Assembly: GCA_032622095.1 (NCBI GenBank)
Contig: CP136063.1
Coordinates: forward strand, 24,120,987 to 24,184,986
Reading direction: 5' to 3'
Origin: Siphonodentalium dalli
Taxonomy: Eukaryota; Mollusca; Scaphopoda; Gadilida; Siphonodentaliidae
DNA: 64,000 nucleotides
The notes under the pieces: generated by a model
What the model was told of the DNA's origin: nothing
Database searches by the model: none
Seen by the model: only the letters and a program-made list of their open reading frames with translations
Position numbers and translations under genes: made by a program
Shown here: piece by piece, positions 11,742-61,468 of the stretch
Layout: the number at the start of each line of letters is the position of its first letter
Numbering within the stretch: the stretch's first letter is position 1

Positions 11742-11865
11742 CGTGAAATGACGACGTGATGTAAATTCGCATCGCTTTTATGCTCTGACACGGACATGCG
11801 CAGTCATCGTCCGTGTCAGAGCATAAAACGACGCGAATTTTCATCACGTCGTCATTACACTGACG
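11741..11865. promoter_or_regulatory. palindromic bidirectional promoter, polymerase/L4
   Basis: The 150-bp gap between divergent genes is an inverted repeat. The arm GTCCGTGTCAGAGCATAAAA (11809 onward) mirrors the left arm ending at 11795. Both arms then continue through CGACGCGAATTT-like sequence to CATCACGTCGTCAT. Each side thus has a TATA-like CATAAAA and a TGACGACGTGATG motif at equal distance from its start codon. The loop is only about 13 bp. This matches a symmetric divergent promoter; activity is inferred. Confidence 0.75.
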
Positions 11866-12479: not shown

Positions 12480-12552
12480 AATATTATTTATTTTATTTAT
12501 TTGTTACGTTTTTTTTAGCAATTTCAGAGCATATCTTTTGAAAAATTTGGGT

Positions 12553-12568
12553 GGCCCTGAAAAGGGCC
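12553..12568 (-). terminator. histone-type 3' stem-loop of L3
   Basis: On the minus strand it reads GGCCCTTTTCAGGGCC: a perfect 6-bp stem with a TTTC loop, 20 nt past the L3 stop. ACCCA follows, then CAAAAGATATGCTCTG about 12-15 nt on. This agrees with the animal histone mRNA consensus GGYYYUHHUHARRRCC plus a purine-rich downstream element. Confidence 0.8.
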
Positions 12569-14120: not shown

Positions 14121-14136
14121 GGCCCTTTTCAGGGCC
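14121..14136 (+). terminator. histone-type 3' stem-loop of L2
   Basis: GGCCCTTTTCAGGGCC on the sense strand, followed 14 nt later by AAAAAGATACGCTCTG. It is the same composite as at the other arm genes. Confidence 0.8.
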
Positions 14137-14386
14137 TCTCAAATTTTTAAAAAGATACGCTCTGAAATTGCTACTGTACGATTTTGTTCATTCTTCCTGG
14201 AGAGAATGTTCGCATAATTTCTCCAAACCAAAATCATTCATCATGAACTTGGAGAAATATTTTCACATAATTTATCAAAGAATACTTCCCTAACAATAAA
14301 AAAAAACCCACTACCACCCTTCATATCTATAATACGATCATCATATAGCATAATAATACAGAGCGTATCTTTCGTGAATTTTAAAT

Positions 14387-14402
14387 GGCCCTGAAAAGGG
14401 CC
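14387..14402 (-). terminator. histone-type 3' stem-loop of L1
   Basis: The minus strand reads AAACGGCCCTTTTCAGGGCC, then ATTTAAAATTCACGAAAGATACGCTCTG in two parts. The stem is perfect and the purine-rich GAAAGA lies about 14 nt beyond it, the spacing of a histone downstream element. Confidence 0.8.
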
Positions 14403-15149: not shown

Positions 15150-15654
15150 ACAACGCTAGCATCTTCGAATTTATTCGAAGACTTTAGCTTTTGTTAAAAA
15201 ATGCACTGGTAAAGTAGCACAATTTACCAACACATCTATTTTTTCTTGGTATTATTCTAAGTTCAATGTGTACAACGAAGGGGAGCGCCCTTCGCTTACC
15301 ACACCGGCATTAGAATCCGAGAAAAATCGATACATTGGTAAATTGTGCTCTTTTCGGTCAAAAAAAACCATTCGAACGCTCAACTTACTCTTTGGAATCT
15401 AGCACAACCTCTAGACCTACCCTGGGCCGTCACTCTGGCCCACCCCCCTCGTTTGGGGCCACTCTGGTCCATGGGCCAGAGTGGCAGCCCCCAGAAAATT
15501 TCTGGGGACTGCTAGTCTGGCCCATGGGACAGAGTGGTCCCAAACGAGGGGGTGGGCCAGAAAAATTAAAAAAAACCTGGGACTGCCACTCTGGCTAATG
15601 GGCAAGAGTGGCCCCAAACGAGAGGGGTGGGCCAGAGTGGCAGCCAATACTACT
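15150..15654 (-). repeat. Polinton copy 1 terminal repeat
   Basis: The outer end reads …GGCAGCCAATACTACT, identical in its last bases to the right end of copy 2. It contains arrays of CTGGCCCATGGGCCAGAGTG palindromes, the CACAACCTCTAGACC block, GCGAAGGGCGCTCCCCTTCG-type hairpins and the AATTTATTCGAAGAC hairpin. It runs inward into L1 upstream sequence. Confidence 0.85.
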
Positions 15655-15660: not shown

Positions 15661-15754
15661 TGCGGGGAAATCATTTAATACATCGTGCAACTTGTGACAT
15701 AAGAGAATCCACACCGGATATATCTGCGGGAAATCAGTCAATGATTCGAGCAAC

Positions 15755-16459
15755 TTGGTGACACATAAGAAAATCCACTCCGGAGATAAACCTTACCATT
15801 GTGATGTATGTAGGAAATCATTTAATACATTGTGCGTCTTGGTGAGACATAAGAGAATCCACACCAGAGATAAGCCTTACCATTGTGATATATGCGGGAA
15901 ATCATTTAATACATCGAGTTATGTGGTGGCACATAAGAGAATCCACACCGGAGATAAGCCTTACCACTGTGATATATGCGGGAAATCATTTAATACATCG
16001 AGCTACTTGGTGATACATAAGAGAATCCACTCTGGAGATAAACCTTACCATTGTGATGTATGTAGGAAATCATTTAATACATTGTGCGACTTGGTGAGAC
16101 ATAAGAGAATCCACACCGGAGATAAGCCTTACCATTGTGATATATGCGGGAAATCATTTAATGTTTCGAGCAATCTGGTGGCACATAAGAGAATCCACAC
16201 CGCAGATAAGCCTTACAGTTGTGATATATGCGGGAAATCATTCAATCAATTGAGCAACTTGGTGAGACATAAGAGAATCCACACCGGAGATAAGCCTTAC
16301 AATTGTGATATATGCGGAAAATCATTTAATATATCGATCAATGTGGTGGCACATAAAATAATCCACATCGGGGATAAGTCTTACCGTTGTGATATATGCG
16401 GGGAATCATTTAATCACTCGGGCGCCTTGACGAAACATAAGATGATTCGTACCGTATAG
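15755..16459 (+). CDS. C2H2 zinc-finger array, interrupted by Polinton
   Basis: A 234-residue open frame with eight tandem C2H2 fingers. The consensus is Y-x-C-D-x2-C-x-K-S-F-N-x5-L-x2-H-K-R-I-H, joined by TGDKP-type linkers. This is a sequence-specific DNA- (or RNA-) binding array of host type. The first complete finger starts after a partial one. The last lacks its second zinc-binding His (KHKMIRTV). Two more, frameshifted, fingers occupy 15661-15754 directly against the Polinton end, so the element inserted into this gene and the 5' part is not in the window. It could be a pseudogene; no promoter, exon boundary or AATAAA is evident. Confidence 0.8.
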   Translation: MVTHKKIHSGDKPYHCDVCRKSFNTLCVLVRHKRIHTRDKPYHCDICGKSFNTSSYVVAHKRIHTGDKPYHCDICGKSFNTSSYLVIHKRIHSGDKPYHCDVCRKSFNTLCDLVRHKRIHTGDKPYHCDICGKSFNVSSNLVAHKRIHTADKPYSCDICGKSFNQLSNLVRHKRIHTGDKPYNCDICGKSFNISINVVAHKIIHIGDKSYRCDICGESFNHSGALTKHKMIRTV

Positions 16460-30629: not shown

Positions 30630-31215
30630 AGTAGTATTGACTGTCACTCTGGCCCACCCCCTCGCTACGACGAGCGAGGGGTGGGCCAGAGTGACGGCCC
30701 AGGGCCGGGCTCGTCGTCACTCTGGCCCATGGGCCAGAGTGACAGACCCAGAAATTTCTGGCCCATGTTTGTTTACCCAGGGCTGTCACTCTGGCGCATG
30801 GGCCAGAAATTTCTGGCCCATGGGCCAGAGTGACAGCCTCGGGTAAACAAACATGAGCTAGAAATTTCTGGGTCTGTCACTCTGGCCCATGGGCCAGAGT
30901 GACAGCCAGCGTGGGGGTGGGCCAGAGTGACCCGCCCATGGTCGGTCCAGAGGTTGTGTTAGATTCCAAAGAGTAAGGTGAACGCTTCGAAGGGTTTTTT
31001 TGACAGAAAAGAGCACAATTTACTAATGTATCGATTTTTTATCGGATTGTAATGGCAGTGTGATAAGCGAAGGGCGTCTCCCTTCGCTGTACACACTGAA
31101 CTTAGAATAATACCGAGCAAAAAATAGATGCATTGGTAAATTGTGCTACTTTACCAGTGCATGTTTTAACAAAAGCGAAAGTCTTCGAATAAATTCGAAG
31201 ACGATAGCGTTGTAA
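30630..31215 (+). repeat. left terminal inverted repeat of copy 2
   Basis: Mirrors 60915-61468. The outer half is a patchwork of palindromes (the 28-bp GTCACTCTGGCCCA/TGGGCCAGAGTGAC at 30716-30743 and again at 30876-30903; a hairpin at 30642-30695). The inner half holds CAGAGGTTGTGTTAGATTCC, inverted GAGCACAATTTAC motifs, GCGAAGGGCG hairpin sequence and the AATAAATTCGAAGAC hairpin. It presumably carries the origin and integrase-binding ends. Confidence 0.88.
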
Positions 31216-31339
31216 AATGTACTTTTAGAAATTGCTGTTCAGTGAAATGTTATGAGATAATGGTAAAATGGTACAGATAAAATTTTCCCGAGTCAAATCG
31301 GTGTTTTATTCATAGAAATATGATGTTTTTGACAAAAAA

Positions 31340-31939: not shown

Positions 31940-31958
31940 TTGTATATTATTTTAAACG

Positions 31959-31974
31959 GCCCTTTTCAGGGCCA
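31959..31974 (+). terminator. histone-type 3' stem-loop of L1 (copy 2)
   Basis: GGCCCTTTTCAGGGCC, then ACATAAAATTCACG and GAAAGAGACGCTCTG. GAAAGAGA sits 14 nt past the stem. This is the best histone-downstream-element match in the window. Confidence 0.85.
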
Positions 31975-32110: not shown

Positions 32111-32680
32111 TCACGATGAATGAATTTGGTTTGAAGAAATTATGTGAACATTATCTCCAAGTTCAGGAAGAATGAACACATCGTACAGTAGCAATTTCAG
32201 AGCGTATCTTTTTTTAAAATTTGTGAGGCCCTGAAAAGGGCCGTTTTGGATGGTTTCAAAAGAAACCGCACGATGTGTTTGGGTTTGAATACAGCTGAAA
32301 GTTGTCTTGGGAACGTCGCAACCAAATGACACAATTGCATGGCCTGTCTGTATCCCCAAGAGCGGCAAGAATTCGTAAACTCTATGCCCTGAGAAGATTA
32401 TGATAGACCGCTGCAGTGATGTAGCCGCAAGTCGCACCATCAATCTTGACGCCCCCAGCAATCTGGCGTGTCGGAACCACCGTGGTGGCAATCCAAAGAC
32501 CCGATCTCTGTTGTCCGTCATCAGCATAACGGTGTACCTGTAGATATCAAAGAAGTTATCTACAGTACCCGTTTCTGCTAAATTCAAAGCCTTCCATATC
32601 ATCTGTGCTTCATCCCCAAACACACCTCTCACCAGCATCCCATCCTCCAAATAGCTCTGATACAGATCTCGGTAATCCAT
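32111..32680 (-). CDS. L2 (copy 2), open but reads through its 3' signal
   Basis: A 189-codon frame starting MDYRDLYQSYLEDGMLVRG. The first ~140 residues correspond to L2 of copy 1. The stop found there is missing here, so the frame continues through the stem-loop at 32227-32242 and into 3' flank; the last ~45 codons are probably not native. The shared body has GDEAQMIWKALNLAETGTVDN and DRVFGLPPRWF, mostly helical, with no family I recognise. It is transcribed toward L1. Confidence 0.55.
   Translation of the reverse strand: MDYRDLYQSYLEDGMLVRGVFGDEAQMIWKALNLAETGTVDNFFDIYRYTVMLMTDNRDRVFGLPPRWFRHARLLGASRLMVRLAATSLQRSIIIFSGHRVYEFLPLLGIQTGHAIVSFGCDVPKTTFSCIQTQTHRAVSFETIQNGPFQGLTNFKKRYALKLLLYDVFILPELGDNVHIISSNQIHSS
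32227..32242 (-). terminator. histone-type 3' stem-loop of L2 (copy 2)
   Basis: The minus strand reads GGCCCTTTTCAGGGCC, then TCACAAATTTTAAA and AAAAGATACGCTCTG. Same composite as in copy 1. Confidence 0.8.
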
Positions 32681-32723: not shown

Positions 32724-32890
32724 GAAAACGCGCGGGCGCCCCTGACGACGTCATTGCATATTTCACCAAATTTCCCCGAACGTCAAAACAAGTGTGTTTC
32801 TTTTTGTCAAAAGAAACACACTTGAATTGACGTTCGGGAAAATTTGGTGAAATACGCAATGACGTCGTCAGCGGCGTCCGCGCGTTTCAT
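32724..32890. promoter_or_regulatory. palindromic divergent promoter L2/L3
   Basis: Two arm-gene modules lie back to back and form a near-perfect inverted repeat with ~75-bp arms. Each reads, from the centre outward, AAAGAAACACACTTG, TTGACGTTCGGG, AAATTTGGTGAAATA, CAATGACGTCGTCA, CGCGCGTTTT/C. Only about 8 bp separate the arms. It drives L2 leftward and L3 rightward by inference. Confidence 0.75.
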
Positions 32891-32926: not shown

Positions 32927-33250
32927 ATGTTCTCTAAACTAAAAGAGAAAATTTTGCTAAAATTCTCTGCCGATGCTCGATTAAAGCATTGGCAGAAGAA
33001 TGTTAGAGATTCGGAGAGCCATAAGATAGCCATTAGAGCTGGAGTTCAAGAATTCCTGCAAAGACGGAGACCTAGTCCTCCCCAGGTGTATATGGAAACT
33101 CCAGAGTGGAACCCCACGTATAAGGAGGGGGCATTATATCCAGATTTGTATGAATATAATCCTCCAAGACCACTGCCAAGGTGGATTACAACTGAGGCAG
33201 CGAAATACGTGCGAGATCCATACTGGAGACCCACATACGACAAGGGATGA
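32927..33250 (+). pseudogene. L3 (copy 2), early stop
   Basis: Starts MFSKLKEKILLKFSADARLK. It shares the EFLQRRRPSPP region and the first W-x-PTY repeat with copy 1. A TGA at 33248-33250 cuts the second repeat about 12 codons before the position where copy 1 ends. An upstream in-frame ATG at 32906 adds seven residues and is less likely. The stem-loop follows at 33300. Confidence 0.65.
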
Positions 33251-33299
33251 CTTTATCCTGATTTGTCTGAATTTTATTGACTCAGCAAACAATTTAAAC

Positions 33300-33315
33300 G
33301 GCCCTTTTCAGGGCC
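33300..33315 (+). terminator. histone-type 3' stem-loop of L3 (copy 2)
   Basis: GGCCCTTTTCAGGGCC followed by ACCCA, the classical cleavage neighbourhood, and CAAAAGATACGCTCT about 12 nt on. Confidence 0.85.
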
Positions 33316-33444
33316 ACCCAAATTTTTCAAAAGATACGCTCTCAAATTGCTACTGTACGATCTGTTCATTCTTCCTGAACTTGGAGAGAATGTTCACATA
33401 ATTTCTCCAAAAAAACGTAACAAGTAATTAAATCAATAATATTT

Positions 33445-60456: not shown

Positions 60457-60851
60457 ATGGAATACCCTAAAACTGATCTTATGTCAGAGCCATCCTTGTA
60501 GTGGCTGCGAAGCCCATTGCGGTGTGGAAGGCCATTTCCTGGGCAATGTTTGGTACAGATGAAAAGTTATTTGAACTATTCGCTTTTGTCTGTGCAACTT
60601 GGGCTCGGAATCCTACACTGCTCAGTGGACAGGAGATAGAGTACATCGAATGGCTTGGGACAACAGATGTCTTACTCACGGTGTTTTGGAGAGAGAAAAA
60701 GCAATACAGATTCAGCGTATCCCCAGTGAGTAATGTGAGTATACCGAAAGGTATATTTCCATCTCTCATCGAGGGTTCGCTTGTGTTTCGGGCGTTCGAT
60801 CAAGAGGATGGATTTGAGTTCCTAAAGACCCCTTATCCACTTTTCTTGTGA
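60457..60851 (+). pseudogene. R1: right-arm gene of unknown function, frameshifted
   Basis: The ATG at 60457 (MEYPKTDLMSEPSL) is one frame away from the main open stretch, which ends at TGA 60849-60851. The body has KPIAVWKAISWAMFGTDEKL, ATWARNPTLLSGQEIEYIEW and FRAFDQEDGFEFLKTPYPLF, mostly helical with Trp-rich segments. No family recognised. It is the only gene next to the right terminus and shares promoter type and 3' signal with L1-L3. Confidence 0.55.
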
Positions 60852-60864
60852 TCTGACGTAAAAC

Positions 60865-60880
60865 GGTCCTTTTCAAGGCC
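60865..60880 (+). terminator. histone-type 3' stem-loop of R1, decayed
   Basis: GGTCCTTTTCAAGGCC followed by ACCCA, 14 nt after the R1 stop. Loop and flanks match the other copies; the stem has one wobble and one mismatch. The purine-rich downstream element is not clear. Confidence 0.6.
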
Positions 60881-60914
60881 ACCCAAAACCTGCTATAAGA
60901 TGGTTCTTGCATGT

Positions 60915-61468
60915 GCATTTTCACAGCACTATCGTCTTCGAATTTATTCGAAGACTTTCGCTTTTGTTAAAAATGCACTGGTAAAGTAGCACAATTTACC
61001 AATGCATCTATTTTTGCTCGGTATTATTCTAAGTTCAGTGTGTACAGCGAAGGGGGGCGCCCTTCGCTTACCACACTGCCATTAGAATCCGAGAACAAAT
61101 CGATATATTAGTAAATTGTGCTCTTTTCTGTCAAAAAAACCCCTTCGAAGCGCTCACCTTACTCTTTAGAATCTAACACAACCTCTGGATCGACCCTGGG
61201 CGGATCACTCTGCCCCCCCCCCCCTCGCTGGCTGTCACTCTGGCCCATGGGCCAGAAATTTCTGGCCCATGGGCCAGAGTGACAGCCCCGGGTAAACAAA
61301 CATGGGCCAGAAATTTCTAGGTCTGTCACTCTGGCTCATGGACCAGAGTGACGACGATCCCGGCCCTGGGCCGTCACTCTGGCCCACCCCCTCGCTCGTC
61401 GTCACTCTGGCCCATGGGCCAGAGTGACGACGAGCGAGGGGTAGGCCAGAGTGACAGCCAATACTACT
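60915..61468 (-). repeat. right terminal inverted repeat of copy 2
   Basis: Inverse of 30630-31215, ending CAATACTACT. Inner hairpins (AATTTATTCGAAGAC; GCGAAGGGGGGCGCCCTTCG) and outer palindrome arrays match the left end. It includes the long palindrome 61373-61456. Confidence 0.88.
61373..61456. repeat. 84-bp palindrome near the right terminus
   Basis: Arms of 42 bp centred on CCCATGGG (61414/61415) with one mismatched pair. It could extrude as a cruciform or fold as a hairpin in single-stranded form. It lies 12 bp from the element end. Confidence 0.85.

Follow-up and report, generated by a model that had tools for sequence, protein, structure and literature searches.

The accessory (arm) genes of a Polinton lineage in the scaphopod Siphonodentalium dalli very probably carry real histone-type 3′-end signals, working or recently working, to judge from the sequence. 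In the window, which is the whole 64-kb stretch of DNA that was analyzed, the 16-base hairpin GGCCCTTTTCAGGGCC has seven matches at up to three mismatches; six are exact and one, at 60865–60880, bears two changes, as a preliminary description of this DNA had proposed. The chance expectation is 0.13, and the maximum among 100 dinucleotide-preserving shuffles of the window was a single match, which upholds the claim that the hairpins exceed chance. These hairpins are not independent of one another, because the 3′ regions of L1 and L2 in element B have a segment of about 117 bp in common (32130–32246 versus 33411–33296, 92% identity) and the two elements of the window, A and B, are copies of one family.

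Polinton Elements and Arm Genes in the Window

Element B extends from about 30.6 to 61.4 kb and is interrupted by other repeats, for example between 35276 and 41166. Its left terminal inverted repeat (30643–31222, plus strand) pairs with 61428–60913 (81.6%), and self-comparison places the right terminal inverted repeat at 60913–61428 (minus strand). Element A is a related copy in the opposite orientation that ends near 15.5 kb. As in Polintons and adintoviruses, terminal inverted repeats are accompanied by a viral type-B DNA polymerase above the Pfam cut-off (PF03175, 27.9 bits, cut-off 25.8). Integrase, adenovirus-type protease and packaging ATPase give weak matches, each below its curated cut-off (rve 22.9, Peptidase_C5 15.9 and Adeno_IVa2 16.6 bits, respectively); a candidate capsid protein has no Pfam match. 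The difference from Polintons and adintoviruses as described in the literature searched lies in the histone-type 3′ ends of the arm genes, the core genes of the window being free of the hairpin. Many reading frames are damaged in both window copies, and intact arm ORFs are found elsewhere in the genome.

In element A, L1 (12588–12923, minus strand) is an ORF of 111 amino acids with relatives, and its stem-loop (12553–12568, minus strand) begins 19 nt past the stop codon. L2 (13699–14108, plus strand; broken frame, limits set by eye) precedes the stem-loop at 14121–14136 (plus strand), and L3 (14423–14876, minus strand; altered frame, limits set by eye) that at 14387–14402 (minus strand). In element B, L3 (31490–31937, plus strand; broken frame, limits drawn by eye from comparison with the intact L015 copy) precedes a plus-strand stem-loop, and L2 (32256–32680, minus strand; broken frame, 3′ limit by eye) is followed by the one at 32227–32242 (minus strand), 13 nt past the stop position of intact copies as placed by eye. 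L1 of this element (32927–33280, plus strand; premature stop codon at 33250, 3′ limit set visually) leads to the stem-loop at 33300–33315 (plus strand), and the right-end gene R1 (60457–60851, plus strand; altered frame), a paralogue of L2, leads to the decayed one at 60865–60880 (plus strand). All seven hairpins follow a Polinton arm gene and lie in its sense orientation, as had been described, and six of the seven positions given at that time are right; the L3 hairpin of element B, first placed at 31959–31974, is actually at 31958–31973. Within the window, no further copy at up to three mismatches lies behind core genes or L4.

Long palindromes occur between divergent arm genes or near element ends (32726–32887, 30716–30903, 11743–11860 and 15434–15561), and some window palindromes give sub-threshold Rfam matches to miRNA precursors. 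The one at 32726–32887 (unstranded; self-match 90%) is the spacer between the divergent L2 and L1 of element B, and could possibly act as a two-way promoter. Beside element A, an ORF at 15698–16459 contains repeats that resemble C2H2 zinc fingers by eye.

Features of the Hairpin and Its Flanks

The 6-bp stem, 4-nt loop and GG...CC ends are exact in six of the seven hairpins, and the decayed R1 hairpin has one non-standard pair. The expected fit to RF00032, the Rfam covariance model for the hairpin of metazoan replication-dependent histone genes, is only partly realized. Three sites pass the gathering score of 34 bits (12553, 39.1; 33300, 38.0; 31958, 34.4 bits), three fall just below it (32227, 33.7; 14387, 31.9; 14121, 30.1 bits), and the 60865 hairpin has no match even at E 0.5. 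The bases ACCCA directly follow the stem at three of the seven sites (12553, 33300 and 60865), consistent with the earlier statement that several copies have them. The other four continue with TCACA, TCTCA, ACATA or ATTTA, so that ACC is absent after the stem at 14121, 14387, 31958 and 32227. The AAAGA element that had been noticed about 14 nt further on is located 14–15 nt after the stem at six sites, and is absent from the 60865 copy.

Host Histone Genes Bear the Same Hairpin

Searches with PF00125 and with H4 reveal large host histone arrays on contigs C5, C8 and C9; the array counts are lower bounds, as 150 of 520 (PF00125) and 150 of 158 (H4) candidates were scored. The 16-base hairpin of host H3, H1, H2B and H4 genes is identical to that of the Polintons, and it is present at all 30 host H3 loci fetched as best matches. 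A host H1 gene with the identical hairpin matches the Pfam linker histone family at 36.2 bits (cut-off 22.4). Among 20 further host histone ends, 13 have the hairpin and seven lack it by the strict pattern, two of the latter being near-hairpins with one change. The distance from stop codon to hairpin is 27–40 nt in host histone genes and 26–27 nt in the H4 gene carried by Polintons (see below). Host hairpins are preceded by AAC and mostly followed by ACC.

A role unrelated to histone-type processing, e.g., as a terminator-like element, a replication or packaging signal or an end signal like that of giant viruses, with histone likeness in shape only, is highly improbable for these hairpins. In its favour, palindromes are abundant in the element, and other viruses have transcripts that end in hairpins. 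However, the match to host genes extends beyond a mere stem to the letters themselves and to host-specific downstream sequence, and host histone genes have the same strand-specific loop and flanks, with AAC ahead of the stem and, in most host cases, ACC behind it.

As for processing factors, the host has an SLBP gene on C2, where PF15247 (cut-off 27) matches at 60.6 and 31.4 bits; the two matches are separated by 3.9 kb and are taken as two exons. No match to the Rfam model of U7 snRNA occurred among the 65 of 541557 candidates scored, a result that does not imply absence. A U7 pattern scan gave 90 and 94 matches versus 27 and 37 for the reversed control, and most of those among the matches listed belong to a dispersed repeat. 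Five candidate places include no clear U7, and their pairing with the tails shows no clear difference (mean z −0.8 to −1.5). The best candidate by eye, L068, has a hairpin after an Sm-like site and pairs no better than the other candidates.

The Downstream Element Resembles That of Host Histone Genes

Twelve of the 20 distinct host ends served to build a model of the host histone downstream sequence without the hairpin (tail-only model). Run unfiltered on the window, this model gives seven matches at E ≤1. The four best start 1–3 nt behind the L1 and L2 hairpins of both elements: in element A, L1 at 12512–12551 (minus strand; E 5.6e-8), with cleavage region, AAAGA core and ATTGCTA, and L2 at 14140–14173 (plus strand; E 4.8e-6); in element B, L2 at 32189–32224 (minus strand; E 4.6e-6) and L1 at 33317–33352 (plus strand; E 5.9e-7). 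The other three matches lie elsewhere (E 0.063 to 0.43), and the tails of both L3 genes and of R1 are missed by this model in the window. A host model of hairpin plus tail recovers all seven window sites (E 1.9e-14 to 0.018), including L3 of element A (E 1.7e-7), L3 of element B (E 1.6e-9) and R1 (E 0.018), and one other place at E 0.38. In 20 related stretches, each of the 29 tail-only matches at E ≤0.1 is directly behind a hairpin-like site, defined by up to three mismatches and in some cases decayed.

The downstream element thus resembles that of histone genes, as had been supposed from its AAAGA core: the best four window matches of a model that knows nothing of the hairpin are directly behind hairpins. 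The proposal of SLBP/U7-type maturation is likewise supported by host histone genes, which share with the arm genes both the hairpin and the type of downstream sequence.

Two Polinton Families Conserve the Hairpin at Orthologous Genes

The genome scanned comprises 2.23 Gb in nine contigs. The exact hairpin has 1268 and 1340 copies (2608, host histone genes included), versus 0 for the reversed control. Of 100 listed sites, all on C1, 47 lie in fetched stretches and were assigned to an element on the basis of one matching flank: 28 to a second Polinton family (F2), 13 to the family of the window (F1), one to both and two to a reverse-transcriptase array, while three are the reference copies themselves. 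That the hairpins simply belong to host histone genes or pseudogenes near the landing sites of elements is next to inconceivable in view of these assignments. Large host arrays do carry the same hairpin, but 44 of the 47 sites match other Polinton arms or the reverse-transcriptase-type array by at least one flank, the remainder being references, and the intact ORFs upstream are arm proteins, the exceptions being the H4 carried by F2 and the ORF in the reverse-transcriptase-type array; for the sampled sites, this explanation is largely refuted.

F2 shares the arm genes L1, L2, L3 and L4, along with a PolB start, in another arrangement. Over aligned parts, F1 and F2 proteins are identical at 30% (L1), 31% (L2) and 24% (L3) of positions. 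In intact copies, L1, L2 and L3 of both families are each followed by the hairpin 13–22 nt past the stop codon; otherwise the distance is 48 nt for a second, tandem hairpin and 49 and 155 nt for broken window frames. The hairpin is therefore kept at homologous genes of related Polintons, here in copies of both families within the same genome, as the preliminary description would lead one to expect. RF00032 passes at 14 further sites in eight of ten related stretches, with none in L009 and L019, and L017 and L023 retain an intact sequence where the window has the decayed R1 hairpin. For 48 of the 64 hairpin sites considered, those of the window among them, an ORF of at least 80 amino acids ends no more than 400 nt upstream; the 16 sites without one are in L009 (2), L011 (2), L014 (2), L017 (2), L025 (1), L026 (2), L027 (2) and the window (3).

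One F2 gene is followed by tandem hairpins 28 nt apart (L011 3436–3479 and homologous places). In the second of these, GGTCCTTTTCAGGACC (GGTCC...GGACC), one pair is changed on both sides with pairing kept, and the host downstream model matches behind this second hairpin only. Among F1 copies, the hairpin has seven changes in 384 base comparisons versus 196 in 2579 further downstream (summed), a contrast that is biased upward because the copies were chosen for an exact hairpin and because the reference row and an F2 row were counted as well. For R1 of F1, conservation of the hairpin (2/48 changed) is no better than that of the downstream flank (11/329).

The distribution of polyadenylation signals is mixed. 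L4, which is convergent to L1, lacks the hairpin and has AATAAA. The latter also occurs within 250 nt after three of the eight hairpin genes checked (F1 L1, F1 L2 and F2 L2), and the ATPase gene, a core gene without the hairpin, has neither signal. Back-up polyadenylation is therefore possible, and the split between hairpin and AATAAA is not clean.

It is unlikely that the hairpins are passive passengers, i.e., unused pieces of host histone 3′ ends that entered the arms by copying and then multiplied through gene conversion or duplication. Copying of this kind would account for the segment common to the L1 and L2 3′ regions, for tails that resemble particular host genes and for the H4 gene that an element and a host array have in common together with its 3′ end. 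Against it stand the constant orientation and stop-codon distance, a downstream element that is mostly kept, conservation at orthologous genes of two families whose proteins have diverged this far, the restriction of window copies to genes other than the core genes and L4, and the compensated double change in one hairpin pair. These features argue for 3′-end signals that are, or recently were, in use.

The L2, R1 and F2 L2 proteins form one related family without a Pfam match, which we suspect to be OTU-like in fold and to lack the catalytic cysteine; an AlphaFold model of the family was discarded (mean pLDDT 38.9). An LxCxE-like motif has one match among 12 arm proteins, in F2 L3. A viral contig collection yielded no Polinton relative (PolB and MCP pieces; hairpin patterns with 0 and 1 match), and its sole hairpin match, L109, is GC-rich, has no Rfam match and was judged by eye to be a chance occurrence in coding sequence. 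No hairpin-pattern match was present in a further collection of genome contigs.

The same hairpin also occurs at C1:64258000–64267900 (L009) and C1:64336000–64341500 (L019), in a 5.6-kb tandem array that encodes a reverse transcriptase (PF00078, 34.5 bits). In L019, the hairpin is 25 nt past an ORF of 203 amino acids and its tail is like that of host H3; the host tail model matches the L009 and L019 tails at E 0.002–0.009, with no RF00032 match at the cut-off. By its sequence, this array brings to three the kinds of element that have a histone-type 3′ end.

A Histone H4 Gene Probably Captured by Polintons

Ten dispersed H4-like places were fetched (L028, L090–L095, L099, L100 and L101), and the seven whose flanks were compared (L028 and L090–L095) lie in F2-type DNA. 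Along its entire length, the L028 protein aligns with histone H4 chains of solved structure (best E 2.6e-54). L028 shares 98% identity across 3.2 kb with L090, which is located on another chromosome. Six copies (L028 and L090–L094) have a 104-residue ORF with a common one-residue insertion. L095 lacks the insertion, L099 has it and has lost another residue, and L100 and L101 are frame-shifted. The genome H4 list includes no place in the window, 150 of 158 candidates having been scored.

Compared with the host H4 gene on C9 (L096), L028 and L090–L095 have 0–2 synonymous and 3–11 nonsynonymous changes, numbers too small for positive selection to be claimed; compared with other host H4 genes (L097 and L098), they have about 48–57 synonymous changes. 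The figures for L099 (13.3 and 33.7) are an artefact, as this copy, with one residue inserted and another lost, was left unaligned. The DNA common to the Polinton and C9 H4 genes begins about 40–60 nt upstream of the start codon and ends 44 nt past the hairpin, or further downstream in L094. Shared sequence past the expected cleavage site cannot stem from a mature mRNA, which points to transfer at the DNA level (or through unprocessed RNA), and we infer that the direction was from host to element. The presence of this H4 in both a host array and an element means that the signal can move as DNA, including the part that would be cut off from the mRNA.

Relation to Known Systems

Metazoan replication-dependent histone genes have the same 16-base hairpin, similar flanks and downstream element and a short stop distance; here, in contrast, the hairpin follows accessory genes that do not encode histones and belong to a mobile virus-like element. 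Bracovirus H4, which bears a long tail, is likewise a variant H4 carried by a mobile viral genome. It is described as suppressing host H4 mRNA (PMC12819152). The Polinton H4 differs from it in residing in a dispersed element, in its one-residue insertion and in keeping the host histone 3′ signal. Histone-like genes are also known from adintovirus-related animal viruses as the 'histoid' genes of adomaviruses and tailtomaviruses, which PMC11071296 presents as remote relatives of histones; the Polinton H4, unlike these, is nearly identical to host H4 and comes with its 3′ end. In the literature searched, outside which most subscription papers lie, there is no prior report of a histone-type 3′ end on Polintons or adintoviruses, and a term search of PMC11071296 and PMC11071308 returned no 'stem-loop'.

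A Possible Mechanism for S-Phase-Coupled Expression

The hairpin endings, together with the captured H4, suggest that these elements tie gene expression to the phase in which the host copies its DNA. SLBP and histone-mRNA turnover follow S phase, and Polintons encode their own protein-primed polymerase. Host SLBP would bind the stem-loop of an arm-gene transcript, U7 snRNP would pair with the downstream element and CPSF73 would cut 4–5 nt after the stem, giving an arm mRNA without poly(A). Because of the S-phase dependence of SLBP and of histone-mRNA turnover, arm-gene expression would coincide with host DNA replication, which would suit a nuclear element with a polymerase of its own. According to PMC7026596, U7 snRNP cleaves histone pre-mRNAs at a point between the hairpin, which is bound by SLBP, and the downstream element; the same source names histone mRNAs as the only known non-polyadenylated mRNAs of eukaryotes. 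Given this reaction and the presence of a host SLBP gene, the arm genes most likely produce non-polyadenylated, hairpin-ended S-phase mRNAs of the SLBP/U7 type.

A wider scheme is conceivable, and is put forward tentatively as somewhat doubtful in its entirety. The accessory genes of this Polinton lineage may have joined the histone mRNA class, being made and destroyed with S phase by SLBP and U7, probably at the histone locus body or close to it; the captured, fast-changing H4 may be used in a bracovirus-like manner to disturb or draw on the host histone supply; and the reverse-transcriptase element may have acquired the same kind of 3′ end. A virus-like family that uses the histone ending on non-histone genes would break the histone-only rule and would provide a simple coupling of viral gene expression to S phase. 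It would also explain why such transcripts would be missed in poly(A)-selected RNA.
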